Translations under genes and position numbers: made by a program | Shown: piece after piece, positions 9,535 through 64,000 of the stretch | How the letters are laid out: the number at the start of each line of letters is the position of its first letter | Numbering within the stretch: position 1 is the first letter of the stretch | Assembly (NCBI GenBank): GCA_963921825.1 | Contig: OY997589.1 | Coordinates: 15,831,735-15,895,734 of the forward strand | Reading direction: 5' to 3' | DNA: 64,000 nt | Origin: Erodium maritimum | Taxonomy: Eukaryota > Streptophyta > Magnoliopsida > Geraniales > Geraniaceae | Notes under the pieces: generated by a model | Databases searched by the model: none | What the model was told of the DNA's origin: nothing | The model's input: only the letters and a program-made list of their open reading frames with translations

Positions 9535-10155
9535 GGATCATCTTTCAAATCATTGTAACACAACAATCACAAAACAAAGCCCAAATCGGATAATTGAAAT
9601 TGTATAACAAGATCATGCATTGCAGTATTCTTATAACTAAATCTCCAAAATATTTAAATCGAACCTTAATAGTTTGGAACCCTAATTCTATTTCTTTCTA
9701 ATTTCTAATTCATACATTAACTACCCTCATTCAAACCCTAAGCTAAGTTTAAAATCCTCAAATCTATTGGAACCCTAACTTTAAAATCCCAAAATCTTGC
9801 AGGTTGAAGGAGATAACGAACTTGAGCTTAGAGGGAGATGGTTTGAGATGAAGAGATGTTGAAATGGAGATGGAAAAATGTTGACTCGGAGATAGCAGCG
9901 GTGAACTCGGTTAAGAGGGTTGGAGGGTCTGTAGTAGAAGAGAAGATCTTTTGGGACGGGCTCGGGGAGGAGAAGACTGAGGAAGGCAAAGCTTGGACGA
10001 TAAAGCTCGGAGAGGATAGAGGTGACATAGCGTTTCTAAAACGAGAGAACAATGGCAAGTGAAAGGTGAGATTGGGATTTTAAGATATAATAAGGGTTTT
10101 ATTAATGGAAAATATTGATTCGGTCAGTAATAAAACATTTGTGACGTGACTCCAG
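9535..10155. other. CACTA-like terminal region, left piece
   Basis: No gene. It contains AACCCTAA-rich sequence, then a GA-rich stretch from about 9800 with a 68-codon open frame that I do not believe. At 10085-10150 is GGGTTTTATTAATGGAAAATATT followed by CGGTCAGTAATAAAACATTTG, of the kind seen in subterminal parts of plant CACTA elements. Its counterpart is on the other side of the LINE remnant, at 10975-11215. Confidence 0.35.
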
Positions 10156-10970
10156 TTTTTTAGCAGCTAGGAAACTTATTAAAAGACACTCTTTTCAAGT
10201 AAAAGAGTGTACAAAACCCAAGTCCAAGAAGAATCAGGGCCAAAGAAATAACAATTACAAAAGATCTCTCACTATAGTTAAAGGGTCAAAAACCTAAAAC
10301 AAAGGACTACAAGTTCAAAACAAAAGTCAATGAATGAAGAAAGATCAACCCTCATCGGTGACCCATTATTTACCCTCTGATGCCAAATTAGGATCATCGG
10401 AAGCCTTTACTCGAGCAACATCTTGAGCTTGACAAGCTTCCGCAACCTGTTTCCAAACATCAACAGGACTAGCTACTCTTTCACGAGTCAAAGAGTGTAT
10501 TCGTGACTTAGTATTATAGTATTGGTTTAATAAGAGAGATGTCGATTGGTGCTTAGGAGGCCGACCCTTACGTTTCACGGGTTTAAGGAGGGCGTCCTTC
10601 CACAGACTACCCATAAAACCCCTACTCACCACAAGCGCACCTTCAACTTCATAACTTCAACACCCATCGTCGAAACCATAACAATTGGATGATGAACAGT
10701 AAAATGAGCAATTAAGACGACCGTATGAAGCTACGAAACAACCTCCAATCGGGCCTTCTCCTTTTGAACAGTAAGAGGCCTAATCCCCAAATTCAGAAGC
10801 TCGGTCCGAGAGTTCGTTGCGATCAATTCCCCAACCTCATGCGAATTTTGAACCACAACCTCCTCAGACACGCTTTGAATCCCCAGAGATGATGATGCAA
10901 CCTTCTTCATTACCTGTCCCGACAATATTCCATGTTGCGTTAAATTAGTATCAACAGGAGTCCCATTCAT
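10156..10970 (-). mobile_element. RRM-type LINE, ORF1 3' part and tail; decayed
   Basis: The T-run at 10156 is the A-tail of a minus-strand retroposon. The tail and the protein end match the better preserved element at 26673-28515: AGAATCAGGG and GGGTCAAAA words in the 3' region, then a C-terminus with WKDALLKP and SLTRER. As in that copy, the tail follows ORF1 directly and no reverse transcriptase intervenes. The 5' end is lost. Confidence 0.6.
10366..10960 (-). pseudogene. RRM-LINE ORF1, C-terminal remnant
   Basis: The open piece 10632-10366 reads SLWKDALLKP, then RIHSLTRERV and DVWKQVAEA. It is alike to the last 65 residues of the 543-residue protein at 28497-26866 (SPWKDALLQP, NRSLTRERT, TLWKSSHKA). 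A second open piece (about 10960-10731) should be more upstream ORF1 sequence but is too diverged to align by eye. The frame is broken between them. Confidence 0.55.
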
Positions 10971-10974
10971 TACC

Positions 10975-11215
10975 GAATGAATTGTTTTTTTGCTCGGTAG
11001 TGAAACTTTCATCACCGACCTAAACAAAATTCATCGGTGATGAAACTTTCATTACCCATCAACAATCATATTTAGTCGATATTTAAATTTTCATAACCGA
11101 CCAAATCATATTTGGATGGTAATGAACTTTCATTACACACCAAATTTTGTTTGGTCGGTAATAAAAGTTTTACTACCGACCAACCATTTGTGTTCGATCG
11201 GATAAATAAACTACC
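10975..11215. repeat. CACTA-like subterminal repeats, right piece
   Basis: Repeated words TTTGGTCGGTAATAAAAGTTT and ACCGACCAAA occur in both orientations about every 45-50 bases. They match the word at 10110-10140 on the other side of the LINE remnant. No element end was identified. Confidence 0.4.
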
Positions 11216-12339: not shown

Positions 12340-14502
12340 ATGAAGGACCTTATCATCGACTACTTTCAGGATCTTTTTACTACAGGCTTACCCAATTTAT
12401 CTAGTTTCCCGGTCGAGGGATTGGAAACTATTTCCCAAGCTCAGAACACCACTCTGTTAACACCGGACACGGTCACAGAAATTAAAGAGGCGGTATTCCA
12501 GATGAGCCCTGAAAAATCGCCAGGTCCCGATGGCTTAAATCCGCGTTTCTTCCAGCATTGCTAGCCTATTGTGGGAGACGATGTCATTCGTTTCATTCAA
12601 GGGGTCATACAATTGGGAAACTTTGATACAAATTCTAAATTCAACCTCGGTGGTACTCATACCGAAGAAGCCGGACCTAGAGAGGGTCACAGATCTATGT
12701 CCCATTGCGATTTGTAATGTCATCTTCCAAATTCTATCCAAGTTACTGGCTAACCGGCTCCGCCCTATCCTGCAATATGTGATATCTGAAACATAGGGCG
12801 CTTTTATTCCGGGGAGATGTATACAGGACAATATTTTGATAGCGTTTGAGGTTATCCACTATCTGAAGAACAAGAGGCATGAGGCAGTGGAATATATGGC
12901 TATTAAATTAGACATGAGTAAGGCCTACGATAGAGTCAAATGAACCTATCTCCTTACTATTATGCAACAGATGGGCTTCTCGGCGGATTGGGTGGCTCTC
13001 ATGGCATGTTGCATGCAAACGGTTACTTACTCAATATCGTCAGGAAGCAGAGACACCCCTTGGGTACGCCGACACGGGGCATTAGACTGGGAGATCCCCT
13101 TTTTTCGTACCTTTTTCCATTTTGCATAGAAGGACTGGCCGCTCTCCTGAACCAAGCCAGGGACTCGGGGCACATACAGGGGGTTAGAATTGCGAGAGGG
13201 GCCCCGGAAATCACTCACATGTTCTTTGCATACGATTTTTATATTTTCTGCAGGGCTACGAGGGAGGATGTTACGACTATCAAATCTATCATGACCACCT
13301 TTGGTATGATATTGGGTCAGACCCTGAACCTTGACAAATCATCCAACCTATTAAGCTCAAATACCTCACTGGCTGATCGTCGTGCCTGTTGCCAAGCTCT
13401 GGATATAAGCGAGATCTCGACATCTTCCATGTACTTGGGAGTACCCAATATGATCAGACGGAACCGAAACTCAGCAATGGCTTACCTGGGGGATCGGGTG
13501 GTCACCAGAATCTGGTCCTGGGATGGGAAACTATTATTTCTGGCGGGTAGGGATGTTATGATCCGTTCTGTTCTAACATCATTACCTATATACATTATGC
13601 CTGTTTTCAAGGTGCCTAACCGTATAATCAATCGCATTTATGTCGCCCTGGCAAAATTCTGGTGGGGAGGCAAATCGCAGAAACCGATCATCTGGCAGGA
13701 TTGGGAGAAACTAAGTCGGCCGAAGGATTGTGGGGGTATGGGATTCCTCCATGTCCAAGACTCTAACACCGCCCTGCTTGGGAAACAAGCATGGATACTC
13801 CTCCATAACCCGAAACCACTTGTGACTAAACTCCTCAAAACTCGGTATTTTCCCAAAATAGATTTCCTCTCACCCATTATGGGACGTAGTCCGAGTTTTA
13901 CATGGGCGAGCATTCTCTCTACTCAGGATCTCCTTCGACAAGGCCTCCGAACTACCATCGGGGACGACCGACAAACTCAAATTTTGGGTACTTCTTGGCT
14001 GATTGGACCGACTGCACAGGTTCAGACAATATCTCCAAACCTACAAGGGCATACAATGGCGGGTCTGATGGTACTGGATAATAGGAAATGGGATGCCCCT
14101 CTGATCGACCGGTTATTCAGCCATGATGATATGGTTAACAATTTGCAGGCTCCCCTCTCGGCGGAGCGAAATCATGATGAACTATATTGGGTCGCGGATA
14201 GGCAGGGCCGATACTCTTCAAATTCGGGGTATAACCAGATGCTAAAGAAACGACAAGATGAGAATCAACATGTAATGGGAGTTCTCTGGGCATCAATTTG
14301 GGATATTCCGGCCCCACCCCTGTACAAGATTTTCCTCTGGCGTTGTCTTACAGATACCCTGCAAGTGGCTACGAATCTCAACAGGAGATATGTTCCGGCC
14401 AATCCGAATTGTACAATTTATGGGTCACGCCCAGAATCAGTTACTCATTTACTTGTCTCATGTGGTTTCGCGAAACGTGTTGGAAGGAATTTGGGCACCT
14501 AA
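12340..14502 (+). pseudogene. LINE reverse transcriptase and zf-RVT
   Basis: 12340-12564 holds MSPEKSPGPDGLNPRFFQ, the start of the RT domain. 12569-12796 holds VLIPKKP, then LANRLRPIL. At 12795-12940 are pieces equivalent to FIPGRCIQDNILIA and KLDMSKAYDRV. A long open frame, 12940-14502 (520 codons), carries the rest: GIRLGDPLFSYLF and the catalytic motif, which reads FFAYD instead of F-ADD, so one catalytic Asp is Tyr. It continues into SMYLGVP, FWWGG, LWRCLTDTL and the zf-RVT region near 14370-14470. The stops and frame changes, plus the lost Asp, make it inactive. Confidence 0.85.
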
Positions 14503-24571: not shown

Positions 24572-26668
24572 GTCACTATCTACACTAGTTGTGGGAGAGG
24601 GATCTACTGGTGTTGTTGTTGTATCATTCCTAAGACTTCTCGCCAGACATGTACTGCATGGAATGATTTTGATAGGTTTAGAGATGTTGATGGTTTAGGT
24701 CATGCTAGATGTAAGCATTGTGGTAAGGAATATTTATGTGATTCTAATAAGCATGGCACTAGCACCTTACACGGGCATGTCAAGATATGTCCTAAACATC
24801 CTAAGAAATCAGACCCAACCCAACAAGGCTTAGCATTTAGGCCTGTACAAAAGGGTAGAGATGGACAACAGCTCATGCCTTGGCATTTTAATCAACAAGC
24901 TTCTAAGGATGCATTACTTAGAATGATATTGATGGATGAGCTGCCTTTTAGTTTCGTAGGGGGTGTTGGGCTCCAACAGTTCTTGACTGAAGTATGTCCT
25001 ATGTTTGCATGCCTTACTAGATACACTGTTAGGAGGGGGATTTTTAAACTGTATGAAGCTGAAAAACTCAAGTTGCATGAGTTTTTCAGCAAATCTACCC
25101 CTCGGATCTCCTTGACCACGGACACTTGGACAAGTGTCCAACAAATCAGTTACATGTGTCTAACTGCTCATTTTATTAATGATGATTGGGTTATGCACAA
25201 GAAGATTATAAATTTCTGCCCAATCACTTCACATAAAGGGGAAGACAAAGGGAAAGCTATTGAGTGTTGTCTGAATTCTTGGGGTCTTAATAGGATAATG
25301 ACTATTACTGTTAACAATGCTAGTGCTAATGATACTGCCATACGATACTTGAATATGCAACAATCATTGTTGTGTAATTCAGTGTTAGATGGAAAATACA
25401 TGCATATGAGGTGTATTGCACACATCCTGAACTTGATTGTGAGTGATGGGTTAGGGCAGCTTGGGGGTGATTCCGTTTCTAGAAGGGCTATTGAAGGGTT
25501 AGGGAAGACGGGTAAATCCGTAGAGAGGATTAGATATGTTGTTCGGTTCATTAAATCCTCTCCCATGAGACTTACTAGGTTCAAGCTAGCTTGTATGCAA
25601 GCTGGATATGCAACCAAGAGGTTGCTATCCTTAGATGTCCCAACCCGTTGGAATTCGACCTACTTGATGCTCAAATCTGCCTCTAGATTGGATAGAGCAT
25701 TCCCCATATACAATGCACTAGACCTTGTTCTTAATGTGGAGATGGATAGTAAGGTTCTCAAGGATGGGTCTTTTCTGGGCCGATTAGAACTTGAGGATTG
25801 GGAGGTTTGCAATTCTGTCATGAGTTTCCTAGAGCTATTTTATGAGGTCACTGTGAGGGTTTCAGGTTCATCATATGCTACATCGAGTATGATTTTAGAT
25901 GAAATCTCAGAAATTTATACATTCATTGGTGATGGTTTGGCTAGTGATAATGTTGAGATGAGAAAAATGGCTATGAAAATGGGGGAGAAGTTCAATAAGT
26001 ATTTTGGGGATATGGAGAAGTTGAACTTGTTTACATTTATAGCACCCATATTTGATCCCCGTAAGAAACTTGGTTATGTGACCTACCTCATTGAGTCCAT
26101 GTACACACTGCCAGCCACCAACATACTTGTGCCTTTGGTGACTAAGTCTTTGAATGACTTGTATGCTCAATATGTGAAGGAATCTGCCCCTTGTGCTGAT
26201 TCAGCAACAGAAACTACTGCTGTTACAGCAGATTCTATTGCTGAAAAACCTTCTAAATACCAAAAGTTTGCTGCATATAAACGGCAGAAAACTATGGAAC
26301 AAGGTGCACTGAAAAATGAGTTGGAGTTGTACTTATCAGAGAGGGAAGAGCCAGATTCTTCTACTTTCAAAATCTTGGCTTGGTGGCAAGCAAATGCCCA
26401 TCACTATCCTATTATATCAAAAATGGCTAGAGATGTTCTAGCCATTCCAGTGTCAACAATGTCAAGCGAGTCTGCTTTTAGTAATGGGGGTAGGATACTC
26501 GGTGATTTCACAAGTACTTTGAGTACACATATTGTGCAGGCTCTAATTTGTACTCAAGATTGGCTCAAAAATCAACCAGCTCTCTTTTCAATAGCTGAAT
26601 TGGAGTTGGAGATGGATGCTCTTCAACTTGTAGATGATGGTATGAGTTTTTTCTCATATTTTAACTAA
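24572..26668 (+). CDS. hAT transposase, BED-zinc-finger type (RICESLEEPER-like)
   Basis: The open frame runs from 24572; the first ATG in it is at 24875. Before that ATG, at about 24655-24800, is a BED zinc finger (AWNDFDRFRD, CKHC, then HGTSTLHGH), so the true start is upstream, probably via a spliced exon. After it come SLTTDTWTS (first catalytic Asp, residue 83 from the ATG), RCIAHILNLIV, VPTRWNSTYLML and the C-terminal dimerisation domain (AWWQANAHHYPIISKMARD, then SSESAFSNGGRIL with the catalytic Glu at residue 532). The second catalytic position, in the DNASAND motif, reads VNNASAND: Asn at residue 147. Cut-and-paste activity is therefore doubtful although the frame is open. The stop codon TAA lies inside the LINE target duplication. 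Confidence 0.88.
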   Translation, partial: VTIYTSCGRGIYWCCCCIIPKTSRQTCTAWNDFDRFRDVDGLGHARCKHCGKEYLCDSNKHGTSTLHGHVKICPKHPKKSDPTQQGLAFRPVQKGRDGQQLMPWHFNQQASKDALLRMILMDELPFSFVGGVGLQQFLTEVCPMFACLTRYTVRRGIFKLYEAEKLKLHEFFSKSTPRISLTTDTWTSVQQISYMCLTAHFINDDWVMHKKIINFCPITSHKGEDKGKAIECCLNSWGLNRIMTITVNNASANDTAIRYLNMQQSLLCNSVLDGKYMHMRCIAHILNLIVSDGLGQLGGDSVSRRAIEGLGKTGKSVERIRYVVRFIKSSPMRLTRFKLACMQAGYATKRLLSLDVPTRWNSTYLMLKSASRLDRAFPIYNALDLVLNVEMDSKVLKDGSFLGRLELEDWEVCNSVMSFLELFYEVTVRVSGSSYATSSMILDEISEIYTFIGDGLASDNVEMRKMAMKMGEKFNKYFGDMEKLNLFTFIAPIFDPRKKLGYVTYLIESMYTLPATNILVPLVTKSLNDLYAQYVKESAPCADSATETTAVTADSIAEKPSKYQKFAAYKRQKTMEQGALKNELELYLSEREEPDSSTFKILAWWQANAHHYPIISKMARDVLAIPVSTMSSESAFSNGGRILGDFTSTLSTHIVQALICTQDWLKNQPALFSIAELELEMDALQLVDDGMSFFSYFN

Positions 26669-26672
26669 TTTT
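26656..26672 (+). repeat. LINE target duplication, 17 bp, left
   Basis: ATATTTTAACTAATTTT, exact copy at 28516-28532. It contains the hAT stop codon. Confidence 0.9.
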
Positions 26673-28515
26673 TTTTTTGATAAGCTCGAAAATAGTATTA
26701 AATAAGACCGAATCCAAGTAGAGGAGTCGGAATGCCCTGATTCAAGCAGAATCAGGGTAAAAGGGGTCAAAAGACCCGGATCACGCTTACAAAGGAGTTC
26801 TGCTAAGGGGGAACTAAAAGGATAAACCTTAACCCAAAAACAAAAAACCGAAAGAAAACAAACAACTAATGAGCTGACTTCTGCCGGGCCTTATGAGACG
26901 ATTTCCACAAGGTCAAAACCGGAGGTGCTGCCTTGATGGTTCGTTCCCGAGTCAAAGAACGATTCCTCGAACGAGTAACAACTGTATACGTAGAAGGCCG
27001 GCTCTTACGGGGTTGAAGGAGGGCATCCTTCCACGGACTACTATCCCTTTCCTCCGCTTCCACCGTATCCTTCAACCCGTTGTTAAACTCCGATACATCA
27101 TCAATAAAACCATCCTTAAAAGATTTCGGACTTGAAACAGCTACACATCCCATTTGCTTTTGAGGATGACTTGCATGGGAAGGATTCAATGGGACAGAAT
27201 CCTTGCAAGCCACAAGGCCCACAACTGGATTCACTGAATCAACAGACAAGCCCAATTGATTTTCAAAACCCGAACGCGAACCGGCTTCCGAAACCATCTC
27301 ACTTGTTGGTACTTGATCTTCACGAAACGACTCCAGCAAAGTCAAAACCTCACGAGATTCTCTGCACCCACCCTCAAACGCCCCTACCGAAAATAACGCT
27401 ACAGGATCTTTCGCAATCTGCTGAGAATCGCGTACCTCACGCTGAAGATATTTTGTGATCTGCACCCTAATCTCCTCCGATAACCAGTCTACTACCAACG
27501 TCGACTTCCGATCACCGGCGAGCAGGAGATTCAACAACTTCCCATCCTCCAATTTGACCCTCTTCTCCTGAAACAAAGAAGGACTCAAGCCTCCGTCTAT
27601 AGCACTCTGTTTTTGCTGTACACCACTAGACCAGCTCCGAAACGGATCTAACTGCCCTAAAACACGATGATGACAGCTACTCTCCAACCCCAAAGGCACC
27701 TGTTCCTGCAGAACTCGGTTCTCCTTGACCACACGATCAGGGCTTCCCATGCTCTGTTTCGAGGATGACGAGCCTTTAACCGGGAAAGGGCATTGTTCCG
27801 GACGAGCCATGGTCACAAACAGCCTGAATCCATTGTACTTGAATCCGTCATAGACTTCAATGGCCTTTTGAGCAGCCGTCGGCGAGACGAAATCTACAAA
27901 ACCAAAACACCTGCCTTTCTTGTTCGGACGTTTTAACGCAATGGCTGACTGAATTTCTCCAAACTCCCCAAACAAGCTTCGAATCCATGCGTCTGAGGAA
28001 CCAAAAGGAATATTAAACACAAAAAATTTTGTACCTGATATCGCATCCTTCCTCGGAGAGACACGACAACCAACTCGTCCATTCTCCTTCGCCGGAATCG
28101 CGACCACAGACACCGGCAGCTTGGCATGTGGCAGAGTCGCAATCGCTTCCTTCCCCGGAGAACCCAAACAAACATCTTGTCCCTTTTCCTTCGCCGGAAT
28201 CGAGACCACAGACACAGGATTGGCACATGCTTGAAACGGAGTCGCAACTGCGACCTTCGAAACATCAAAGCCCTTCCGCTTCAGTTCAGATGAGGCAGCC
28301 TTGATTGTTCGCTTTTTCTGATGTAAATCAGGCACTACCAAGCAACCATTTTTCACAAGCAAACGAACAGAGCCACAATTCGCACAATAACGAGAAATGT
28401 TTCTCAAAAACTTAACACCACACACATCACGATACCTAGCTTTGTGATTGTGGACTGTGCGAGTACCAGCTTTGGTATTGGCTTTCATCACATCCATATC
28501 CTTACCCTTATGAGT
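26673..28515 (-). mobile_element. ORF1-only LINE with RRM protein, 1.84 kb, intact
   Basis: A 17-bp target duplication and an A-tail (T-run from 26673 on this strand) mark a minus-strand retroposition event. From 5' to 3' the element has about 18 bases of leader, one open frame of 543 codons, and about 190 bases of 3' sequence ending in the tail. There is no ORF2. The long perfect duplication and the open frame imply a young insertion. Plant LINEs with an RRM in ORF1 (BNR type) are known. The relative at 10156-10970 also joins ORF1 directly to the tail. Confidence 0.88.
26866..28497 (-). CDS. LINE ORF1-type RNA-binding protein with RRM, 543 aa
   Basis: The ATG at 28497 lies 18 bases inside the element. 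Residues 26-52 are Cys-rich with a CANC pair (38-41). Residues 93-121 and 127-154 are a direct repeat (PVSVVSIPAKEKGQ and PVSVVAIPAKENGR). Residues 156-231 form one RRM: RNP2 is FFVFNI (158-163), RNP1 is GRCFGFVDF (195-203). The rest is low in structure, with a basic C-terminus (WKDALLQPRKSR, SRNRSLTRER). In LINEs such a protein binds the element RNA and helps target-primed reverse transcription. Without ORF2 it would need a LINE elsewhere for mobility. A retroposed RRM host gene is an alternative, but the tandem ORF1 signature shared with 10366-10632 argues for a repeat family. Confidence 0.82.
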   Translation of the reverse strand: MDVMKANTKAGTRTVHNHKARYRDVCGVKFLRNISRYCANCGSVRLLVKNGCLVVPDLHQKKRTIKAASSELKRKGFDVSKVAVATPFQACANPVSVVSIPAKEKGQDVCLGSPGKEAIATLPHAKLPVSVVAIPAKENGRVGCRVSPRKDAISGTKFFVFNIPFGSSDAWIRSLFGEFGEIQSAIALKRPNKKGRCFGFVDFVSPTAAQKAIEVYDGFKYNGFRLFVTMARPEQCPFPVKGSSSSKQSMGSPDRVVKENRVLQEQVPLGLESSCHHRVLGQLDPFRSWSSGVQQKQSAIDGGLSPSLFQEKRVKLEDGKLLNLLLAGDRKSTLVVDWLSEEIRVQITKYLQREVRDSQQIAKDPVALFSVGAFEGGCRESREVLTLLESFREDQVPTSEMVSEAGSRSGFENQLGLSVDSVNPVVGLVACKDSVPLNPSHASHPQKQMGCVAVSSPKSFKDGFIDDVSEFNNGLKDTVEAEERDSSPWKDALLQPRKSRPSTYTVVTRSRNRSLTRERTIKAAPPVLTLWKSSHKARQKSAH

Positions 28516-28532
28516 ATATTTTAACTAATTTT
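28516..28532 (+). repeat. LINE target duplication, 17 bp, right
   Basis: Exact match to 26656-26672; the hAT sequence resumes after it. Confidence 0.9.
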
Positions 28533-28949
28533 GATGTATGTTAAATGTGTTTTAGCAAGTGTTGGTAATTACTAACACTTTTTATTTGTTGCTCTAAGTG
28601 AGACATCCAGTCCACTTGGTAACCCAATGATATTTTAAGTCTCAGCTATGGTATTGGTATACATATAACTTTTATTTGATCCAATGCTTGTGAATTAAAC
28701 TATTTCCTTTTCTTGAGTTAATCTATTGTTGTTGTACATGTATAGACTCATATTCATTTTTTCGTAGGTACTTTTGAAGAATGGAGTGAAGGTCATGGAA
28801 ATGAAGTGAATGTGTAATACTTTTGATGAAGTTGTAATAGTTCTACTTTTGTAATTTTGTTTAGACAGCTCCATTCTTGTAAATTTGTAATGCTTGTGAA
28901 CTGATCACAAGATGAACAACTGATGTATTAGTTTTAGGGGCAGGTTTTT

Positions 28950-61718: not shown

Positions 61719-64000
61719 TTTTTTTTTGAGGAGAAATGATGCTATTATTAATTGAATATAAAATAAATTGATGGTTACATTTCTGTACTCATCGATAACT
61801 CATAAACCAAGTAATTATAATGCAATAACATAAAATTAAACGTTGTTCCGGACATAGGGCGGTCGAAGGAGAAATATGTGGTAGCGTTTGAGGACACCAA
61901 TACAGCATGCTCCAGCTCAATGGGACTGGTCGAGCCAACCAAGTGAAAGAGGAATAATGGTGGACTGGCATCTCCCCCGGTAAGTCAGCGTGCGTCGTCC
62001 TCCCTTGAGCGATACTTGTAGGGCTTCTGAACGCGGGATTGCTGACCCCAGACTGGTAGGGGAGAATCTTGTCGGCTGGTGATGGAACCAACACCATCTA
62101 TCAGCCAGGAAGGTGGTACAACCGACCAACCCCTCCCTGGACCTCCACAGACTCATTCCTGGAGGCGGGGGTGCTTGTGGCCCCCGCCGCCGCTACATGT
62201 GACGCTCCATCTGACGCTATCGATCACTCCGATTCTTCCGGCTCTTCTTCCCGCTCCAAGCGTTTCTTCCCAGACAGAGACGGAACGGCCTCCTTTGCTA
62301 GCCACTCAGATGGTATGTCCTCGGTCCCGGTCTCATAGGACTTGGCTCTCCCCTTCCCCTGCTCCTACCGGGGAGGTGGCGTACTTGGACCCCAATTACC
62401 TCCCTTGCTCCCCCCATCCAGGTAAGCCCAGTTGGTCCCTGTAGTCTCCTTCCCATGCTTTGCTTTCTCAAGAGCAGACCTCGGATCCGCCGAAGCTCGT
62501 AAAGAGTGTCCCCTGACTCCTCCAACTATAGGGCATCCCGGAAACAAGTGTCCCGCACAGCTACATCCAAAACAGTGGTCTAGAAGATGTTCATATGATA
62601 CCTGAAGGAGCGTGCGTACCTGAGATTCCGATATTCGGAACCAAATTTAGCTTTGGAGGGGGACCCGAATGTCAGCTCGAATCCGATTTTTCATGCAATC
62701 CCCCAGCATAATCCTGAGCTATCCACATCGACCGCCTGACAGATCCCTAGAGCATTCCCCACTCGGAAAACCACCTCCTTGTTCCATGCCCCCACCGGGA
62801 GTTTAGATACTCTAGCCCATACCGAGAAGTGATGAAATCTTAGCTCTCCTGCGTGCATGTGGGCCCTGAGGTCTGTGAACAGCACAATTGAGTTCCAGAA
62901 TGCCCATGGCTCTCCTGCTAAGACTCTCACCCTTTCCCTAGCTGACCTGAAAAAGAACGCTACTAAGCCCTCCTCTAGAGGCTTCGCTTCTACTTTCATA
63001 CCCCACAGGTCCTCCATTCGGGCCACTAACGACTTCCAAAAAAATTTCTTCGATGTTAGTACCTTCGCTGCCATCGCAAACTGGTATTGAGCCCCACTAT
63101 TGACAATATCCCCCGTAGGTACCACCACCTCCTTGATGCATAATGACGACATTTCTGAATCCTAGGTCCCCCACTCGAGTACCGGATCCTCGATATCCCC
63201 TTGCACCCGGGTCAGTCGATCCCCCAGATTCATCTTGCCAACCCGACACCCGACCCGGCTCCGCTAGATCAACCCTCGGATGGGTTCGCCCCGACCCGCC
63301 CCGCTCAATCGGGCTACCAGACCCGTCCCGGCCCTGCAACCCTGTCTGGGCTCGCTCAACCCCCGCCCTATATCGGGCCGCCCAGGTGGCCACATCTCTC
63401 GGCCCAACCCGAGTCCATCCCGGATGTCCCATTTGCCCTCTTACAGTCCGACCAGTCCCCGCCCGAGGTACCCATCCCACTTCTCCTCTCCCGGTCCGTC
63501 TGGCGTCTGCAAGCAACCCATTGTCCCGACCCAGCTCCACACGCCCCCGGGCCACCCCAGACTCGGGAACCCTAGGTTCCTCCCGCGCGACCCCCTTCCC
63601 CTTACTTCGCCTCCACGCCTGCGCCGCCGGCGACTCCTCCGGCGTCACCACCGTGTCCAGCGACACCACTATGGGATCCGACCCATCTTTTCCCATAGCG
63701 ATCGCTACGTCTTCCCCCCTGCGCCTGCAGAGCCGATGTCCACGCGAAACCATCCACCTCTGATGGCCTCCCCGAACCCCCTACGCGTCTCGGGCGCGGT
63801 CCCCTCGGCGTGCACCGCACCCGATTTGCCGCTGAATGGTACCAACCTCCGCCTCCACGATTCTCCTCCCCCGTTCTCTGAGCCGAGAACCTCATCGGGG
63901 AGGAGCCTCCTTCACGCGACGACAGCGGATCAGGCTCCGTGAATGATGCCCCGTCCACTCCCGTTCCATCCACCGCCGTCTCCTGGAGATCCGAACCCAC
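61719..64000 (-). mobile_element. ORF1-only LINE, second copy (runs out of the window)
   Basis: The T-run 61719-61727 is the A-tail. Inside it lies a 3' region shared with 48450-48932, then an acidic coding remnant, a zinc knuckle, DUF4283 and a Gly/Arg-rich N-terminal region up to the window edge. ORF1 connects to the tail without ORF2, exactly as in the copy at 40001-48932. Confidence 0.78.
62350..64000 (-). pseudogene. LINE ORF1: N-terminus, DUF4283, zinc knuckle
   Basis: 64000-63602 and 63753-63097 hold the Arg/Gly/Glu-rich N-terminal region in two frames (EPDPLSSREGGSSP, then WTRVGPRDVATWAARY). 63152-62691 is DUF4283: CIKEVVVPTGDIV, QFAMAAKVLTSKKFFWKSL, GMKVEAKPLEEGLVAFFF, GEPWAFWNSIVLFTDLRAHM, FHHFSVWARVSKLPVGAW. 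A stop follows and, at 62574-62532, an intact CCHC knuckle CFGCSCAGHLFPGC. The protein resembles 47242-48300 throughout. It is better preserved than that copy but still broken by frame changes. Confidence 0.8.

Follow-up and report, generated by a model that had tools for sequence, protein, structure and literature searches.

A retroposon family of Erodium maritimum that encodes a single RRM protein and probably uses LINE machinery in trans

The element and its insertion site

The DNA analysed here (the window) is a stretch of 64,000 nucleotides (nt) from Erodium maritimum (contig OY997589.1, positions 15,831,735 to 15,895,734 of the forward strand), which carries on its minus strand, at 26673-28515, a mobile element encoding a protein with an RRM domain. 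The element, referred to below as the unit, comprises the 1843 bp between two exact copies of the 17-bp word ATATTTTAACTAATTTT (26656-26672 and 28516-28532) and is composed of an 18-nt leader, an ATG frame at 28497-26866 (543 aa) and a 193-nt 3′ part with an A-run. The 543-aa frame is the only one within it, and neither a second open reading frame (ORF2) nor a reverse transcriptase is present. A 97% identical copy of the flanking hAT transposon sequence elsewhere in the genome (locus L089) represents the empty site, as it contains the target sequence once and lacks the insert, and the joined flanks of the unit align to it over 817 nt with a sole gap of 3 nt. Because of this empty site, the insertion and its target duplication are established beyond what could be inferred from the repeat. 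An earlier note, made from the letters of the window, had described a recently mobilised element of the long interspersed nuclear element (LINE) type that retains only the first frame (ORF1); its coordinates are exact, and mobilisation of an ORF1-only element is borne out by the 17-bp duplication, the A-tail, the lack of ORF2 and the empty site. The features of the unit, including 3′ untranslated region (UTR) and the ratio of nonsynonymous to synonymous substitution (dN/dS) where calculated, are as follows.

26656..26672, no strand: target-site duplication, 3′ (A-tail) side; exact match to 28516-28532, single in L089
26673..28515, minus: element, 1843 bp, between the 17-bp copies; other copies share the terminal 3′ base
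26866..28497, minus: open frame of the RRM protein, 543 aa, ORF1-like; 13 open homologues at 39-54% identity over the alignment
27823..28023, minus: RRM domain, residues 159-225 (RRM_1, PF00076, E 1.5e-12); low dN/dS; the only well-predicted part of the structural model
26869..27060, minus: conserved basic C-terminal region, residues 480-543; dN/dS 0.20, median dS 0.62
28040..28218, minus: imperfect 77-bp duplication within the N-terminal coding sequence; unit positions 298-374 versus 400-476, 83-84% identity
26673..26865, minus: 3′ UTR and tail, kept family-wide; folding energy of the last 118 nt -39.9 kcal/mol (z -6.0)
26735..26757, minus: hairpin 1, CCCTGATTC-TGCTT-GAATCAGGG; 91.4% of cells paired, both-side changes at 3/9 pairs
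26708..26730, minus: hairpin 2, CCGAcTCC..GGAtTCGG; 85.9% of cells paired, both-side changes at 4/8 pairs
28516..28532, no strand: target-site duplication, 5′ side; exact match to 26656-26672

Copies, protein and 3′ end of the family

Near copies of the unit (L002-L007) are 85-98% identical to it, and each of L003-L007 lies between target words of its own (10-15 bp), with L007 being a 5′-truncated copy of 588 bp. The 77-bp internal duplication is present in near copies too, and L005 and L006 have lost ∼126 and 157 bp through differing internal deletions that border it. Genome-wide, the 32-nt 3′ terminus occurs 287 times at up to three mismatches (reversed control, 0). A protein search of the genome, in which 80 of 10230 candidates were scored, gave 105 matches, and 30 loci found in this way were cut out (L039-L068, the first seven of which, L039-L045, are the unit and near copies). 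Twenty-eight of the 30 are colinear with the unit from ORF1 through the last base and leave no room for ORF2, as judged from similarity to the unit with no separate reverse transcriptase search at these loci; in the two exceptions similarity ends at unit positions 1778 (L061) and 1532 (L064). Examination of 55 loci, three of them without an alignable end, provided 52 3′ ends including that of the unit. Target words of at least 11 bp are found at 25 of these ends, against 0/52 for reversed words, and 22 plausible spans, searched to ∼3 kb upstream, enclose 588-2047 bp once the spans of L002, L046 and L053, judged unreliable, are excluded.

The same order of ORF1 C-terminus and tail is seen when the genome is searched by motif. 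A degenerate DNA form of the C-terminal motif WKDALLQP occurs 193 times and is followed by an exact tail word within 306-336 nt in 84 cases and within 337-367 nt in a further 26, with a second 3′ UTR word lying downstream of 104/193. In an exact-word check on two contigs (C1 and C2), 45 of 57 motifs precede the tail or the 3′ UTR word, and one more precedes the 32-nt terminus pattern, so that 46/57 have a family 3′ UTR or tail. In protein-found loci with the strict motif, the tail (up to two differences in 12 nt) lies 316-349 nt downstream in 13/13. Conversely, of 12 3′-terminus places picked by hand from 100 among the matches listed, nine are preceded by the ORF1 C-terminus; the other three (L090, L096 and L100) are perhaps 5′-truncated copies or a shorter derivative. 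A one-off deletion of a LINE is ruled out by copy number and common ends, as the earlier note had anticipated in proposing a family, and the copies with common ends and differing target duplications for which it called are present (L003-L007 and the 25 ends above). That most copies might carry ORF2 between ORF1 and tail, which would have undermined its proposal, does not hold for the loci read, with 28/30 colinear among those drawn from the 80 scored of 10230 candidates.

Fourteen family frames, each open over at least 380 codons as found, were aligned to examine the protein. Only the RRM and the final 64 residues are strongly conserved (unit residues 480-543, WKDALLQPR..TYTVVTRSR..SLTRER..LWK.SHKAR). 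Median Nei-Gojobori dN/dS is 0.145 in the RRM (66/91 pairs with computable dS) and 0.20 in the C-terminus (91/91 pairs), compared with 0.655 in the middle (90/91 pairs). On these alignments the RRM and basic C-terminus look selected. Between the unit and five near copies, three of which contain stops, dN/dS is 0.38-0.46, as expected from a mixture of a selected lineage and neutral decay. Median dS falls from 1.7 (RRM) and 1.2 (middle) to 0.62 (C-terminus), and it is because of the high values that we call the family old; the lower C-terminal value may point to constraint at the RNA level in that region or to 3′ ends exchanged between subfamilies. At the N-terminus at least two unlike forms are discernible by eye, one containing Cys (unit, L028 and L055) and one of the type LSF..F.S..LY (L017, L019 and L062). 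Structure prediction gave a mean pLDDT of 45 with the RRM alone confident, no Pfam family exceeds its cut-off in the protein beyond the RRM, and DUF4283 is absent from the four family frames tested.

The 3′ UTR is likewise conserved through the family, and its two hairpins appear to covary. Pairs were counted on a new alignment of 51 of the 52 ends (L047, without most of both hairpins, was omitted). Over both hairpins 88.8% of cells are paired, and sliding the partners reduces pairing to at most 58.7%. Changes on both sides affect 20 cells (shuffled mean 9.4, 0/500 shuffles) and seven pairs (shuffled mean 3.9, 14/500 shuffles), and the covariation score was reached by 0/500 shuffles. Unpaired cells include 18/49 at the sixth pair of hairpin 1 and 32/51 at the fifth pair of hairpin 2. 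An Rfam scan of window positions 26600-28600 returned one match, under its gathering score.

These traits bear on the reading of the element as a passive passenger, in which any L1-type LINE would copy its mRNA through relaxed poly(A) recognition, as for a processed pseudogene, and the protein would be irrelevant. The A-tails agree with such copying, and plant L1 elements with relaxed recognition have been proposed (PMC3747384); against it stand the low dN/dS of the RRM and C-terminus, the conserved and covarying 3′ hairpins, and the hundreds of 3′-end copies in many subfamilies, and we consider it highly improbable.

LINEs of the same genome and the likely life cycle

Autonomous LINEs are abundant in this genome. 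First-look searches gave 18162 candidates for RVT_1, which include other retroelements, and 12901 for zf-RVT, and 150 of each were scored. Two of the LINEs, L073 and L074, have reverse transcriptase frames of 1238 and 1231 aa and an ORF1 in which an RRM is followed by DUF4283, in a single frame in L074 and in two overlapping frames in L073. We call the RRM-bearing LINEs of this genome BNR-like, after the BNR-type plant LINEs, an L1 subclade with an RRM in ORF1. The BNR name appears in a reference title in PMC3747384 and in a table in PMC9033089.

The RRM of these LINEs resembles that of the family. Scored with a profile built from the 14 family frames, the RRMs of L073 and L074 reach 76.1 and 79.9 bits, and among PDB chains matched in a single stretch the newly aligned profile scores Nop4 highest at 68.1 bits, the others reaching at most 49.9 (plant host RRMs being poorly represented in PDB); Pab1 attains 109.7 bits summed over three stretches. 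Beyond the RRM, the LINE ORF1 consists of DUF4283 and an unrelated tail, with no match to the family protein.

The 3′ termini extend the resemblance. Sixteen LINE 3′ regions were taken by RVT_1 match (L069-L071 and L075-L087), of which 12 have a readable A-tail (L077, L079, L085 and L087 do not); L070, a near-duplicate of L069, was dropped, leaving 11, nine of which are assigned to the RRM group by their reverse transcriptase match and tail. Two A-runs occur in L069, L078, L080, L082, L084 and L086, and the tail was there chosen by eye. Most of the 11 finish in a form like ..AATAAA..TTGCTGATMA(n), and their terminal 34 nt resemble those of 13 family ends with z 7.3 (0/300 letter shuffles), or z 3.9 (0/300) when the last 8 nt are held. 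Eight zf-RVT regions (L072 and L102-L108), regarded as RNase-H-type by eye on the L072 translation with no family search, gave six usable ends (L103 and L105 lack a readable tail), and these gave z 0.9 (62/300), or z 0.4 (102/300) with the last 8 nt held. The zf-RVT LINEs are rejected as helper on account of these unlike 3′ ends. A 28-nt form of the LINE terminus (up to two mismatches) occurs 686 times (control, 0), and hairpins lie ahead of the tail in the LINEs as well, although of three sequences folded (z -3.2, -1.8 and -0.5) only one stands out from shuffles. The earlier note suggested a search for a full LINE that carries ORF2 and shares the 190-nt 3′ part of the unit; the LINE 3′ ends that were read included none.

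Two accounts of descent may be set against these data. According to the first, the family is a half-LINE in the strict sense, made by deletion of ORF2 from an RRM-LINE whose parent is gone or unfound, with the tail of ORF1 diverging later. The higher score of the two LINE RRMs over the best single-stretch chain and the similar terminus of RRM-group LINEs argue for it; against it, no LINE among those read has a matching C-terminal region or 190-nt 3′ UTR, and DUF4283, which follows the RRM in the LINE ORF1, is missing from the tested family frames. We regard this origin as possible, at somewhat less than even confidence. According to the second, which we think unlikely, the mRNA of an RRM gene or a chimaera gained a LINE-like 3′ end and turned mobile, and the RRM likeness to LINE ORF1 reflects common RRM ancestry. 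The lack of any Pfam match beyond the RRM would suit a gene origin, as would a phmmer search with the unit alone, in which Pab1 (69.3 bits in total) exceeds the LINE (60.7 bits); opposed to this, no intron-containing source gene was seen by eye among the 105 protein matches from the 80 candidates scored out of 10230, and the LINE RRMs outscore single-stretch PDB chains.

The reading we favour is that the unit is a young element within an old, large and diversified family of non-autonomous retroposons which encodes one RRM protein and probably uses the ORF2 of a LINE in trans. In such a cycle the element RNA would be translated, and the RRM protein would bind its own RNA in cis, as ORF1p does. 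The 3′ end, with its hairpins and GCUUAU(M)A(n), would then be recognised by ORF2 protein supplied by a resident LINE of the RRM type (BNR-like), with target-primed reverse transcription inserting the copy. Cis preference, whereby RNAs that yield good protein are the RNAs that are copied, is suggested because the protein appears selected in an element unable to copy itself.

Several points weigh against this life cycle, the case for which is built from sequence. The comparison of ORF1 proteins involves two LINEs (L073 and L074), and the likeness to the putative helper amounts to ∼34 nt plus a hairpin arrangement seen in both, and does not extend to the longer 3′ UTR. The 13 family ends in the terminus test are every fourth of the 52, compared with letter shuffles, and its z values are inflated since the LINE ends are mutually related and 6/11 tails are choices by eye. 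The ∼3 kb reach of the target-word search puts a full LINE length beyond view, and the 11/57 C-terminal motifs unplaced on C1 and C2 leave room for a relative with both ORF1 and ORF2. The frames were picked as open and similar, which biases dN/dS low; differences between regions suffer less from this, and the value of 0.655 in the middle of the same frames speaks against the bias accounting for all of the effect. The hairpin shuffles do not preserve relatedness, and RNAalifold on a rough earlier alignment found almost no structure, which counts against the hairpins.

Comparison with known systems helps to place the family. HAL1 (half-L1) is an L1 derivative of several origins that encodes only ORF1p (PMC5753468) and is thought to use the L1 machinery (PMC4161310). 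The family is like it in being non-autonomous with an ORF1-type protein only (PMC5753468), and in being multi-copy with common ends and an ORF1 that bears signs of selection. It is unlike HAL1 in that, outside the RRM, its protein cannot be recognised as the ORF1 of either LINE examined (L073 and L074), and in that its 3′ UTR keeps conserved hairpins. With BNR-type LINEs it shares the RRM in ORF1, and the 3′ terminus is similar (..AATAAA..GCTKATM-A(n)), preceded in some by hairpins; it differs in lacking ORF2 (endonuclease and reverse transcriptase) and DUF4283, in its N- and C-terminal regions, and in a 3′ UTR that cannot be aligned further upstream. Identity with an RRM (BNR-type) LINE is ruled out by the absence of ORF2 from the unit and the 28/30 colinear loci. 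A conserved 3′ hairpin is also a trait of stringent-type pairs of plant L1 and short interspersed nuclear element (SINE), as in maize ZmSINE2 and ZmSINE3, where the hairpin and a CGAG near the end are regarded as the signal to the partner LINE (PMC3747384); those partners are SINEs, whereas the family codes for protein. The Arabidopsis Sadhu elements (∼0.9 kb) are, like the family, non-autonomous plant retroposons with an A-tail, target duplications (7-16 bp in Sadhu), empty sites and several subfamilies, and are described as non-coding, in contrast to the 543-codon frame found here (PMC2848041). This frame, with its selected relatives, rules out a SINE or Sadhu. A plant LINE is described in PMC11288735, and the available part of a review of plant transposable elements names SINEs and reduced long terminal repeat elements as non-autonomous class I elements, with no ORF1-only LINE derivative among them (PMC9033089). 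The leading results of our literature searches contained no plant ORF1-only LINE family, and priority is not claimed.

The earlier note had called the element a plant analogue of HAL1, which fits as regards mechanism; descent by loss of ORF2 from a LINE is possible. We do not file the family as a half-LINE by descent because none of the LINEs seen has a counterpart to its protein outside the RRM or to its 3′ UTR upstream of the terminus. We tentatively suggest that the family could constitute a plant retroposon of a separate kind, parasitic on LINEs and equipped with its own cis-acting RRM/basic protein and a structured 3′ end. Such a kind would draw only reverse transcription and endonuclease from the LINE and would take a place between SINE and LINE, and its protein would not simply be the ORF1 of the helper and would have been kept by selection through many subfamilies.

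In autonomous LINEs, where ORF1 and ORF2 move as one, it is difficult to learn whether ORF1p helps its own RNA. In this family nature seems to have split the two, leaving an RNA-binding protein alone with a defined 3′ signal, in hundreds of copies of which some have open frames. The family thereby opens cis preference and the recognition of 3′ ends by plant LINEs to direct testing, and it bears on the question of why a parasite keeps an RNA-binding gene. For annotation there is the risk that its frames could be called host RRM genes.

Other features of the window

A second stretch, 10156-10970, had been described in the earlier note as a decayed relative with the same junction of ORF1 and tail; this claim holds only in a weaker form. 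The stretch matches the unit only across the C-terminal portion of ORF1 (44% over 64 aa, E 0.004) and across 32 nt, although by eye the WKDALL..SLTRER motif and a 3′ stretch of the CCCTGATTC type are recognisable. No exact flanking duplication was found around it, and a 22-nt repeat (82%, 10119-10140 and 11150-11171) resembles the repeat units in its surroundings. Its tail is unlike that of the unit (..GCTGCTAAAAAA). At two of the 12 sampled 3′-terminus places (L097 and L098), a C-terminus like that of 10156-10970 is seen by eye together with the family 3′ end. The stretch looks like a distant subfamily. Its tail also carries a ACACTCTTTT..AAAAGAGTGT hairpin, and an array of ∼40-nt repeats adjoins it at 10982-11183.

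Traces of other LINEs are present in the window. A remnant of LINE ORF2 lies at 12940-14502 (520 aa, zf-RVT, E 1.4e-15), and the element to which it belongs seems by eye to end at ∼15135 against unrelated sequence. A DUF4283 frame at 62691-63152 (E 1.6e-14) is probably the ORF1 of another plant LINE type.

The flank of the unit at 24875-26668 contains an open 597-aa hAT transposase frame (Dimer_Tnp_hAT and hAT-like RNase H). The 3′ part of this frame has eight more genomic copies at 95-97% identity, and because of these copies the hAT family of the flank was probably active recently.

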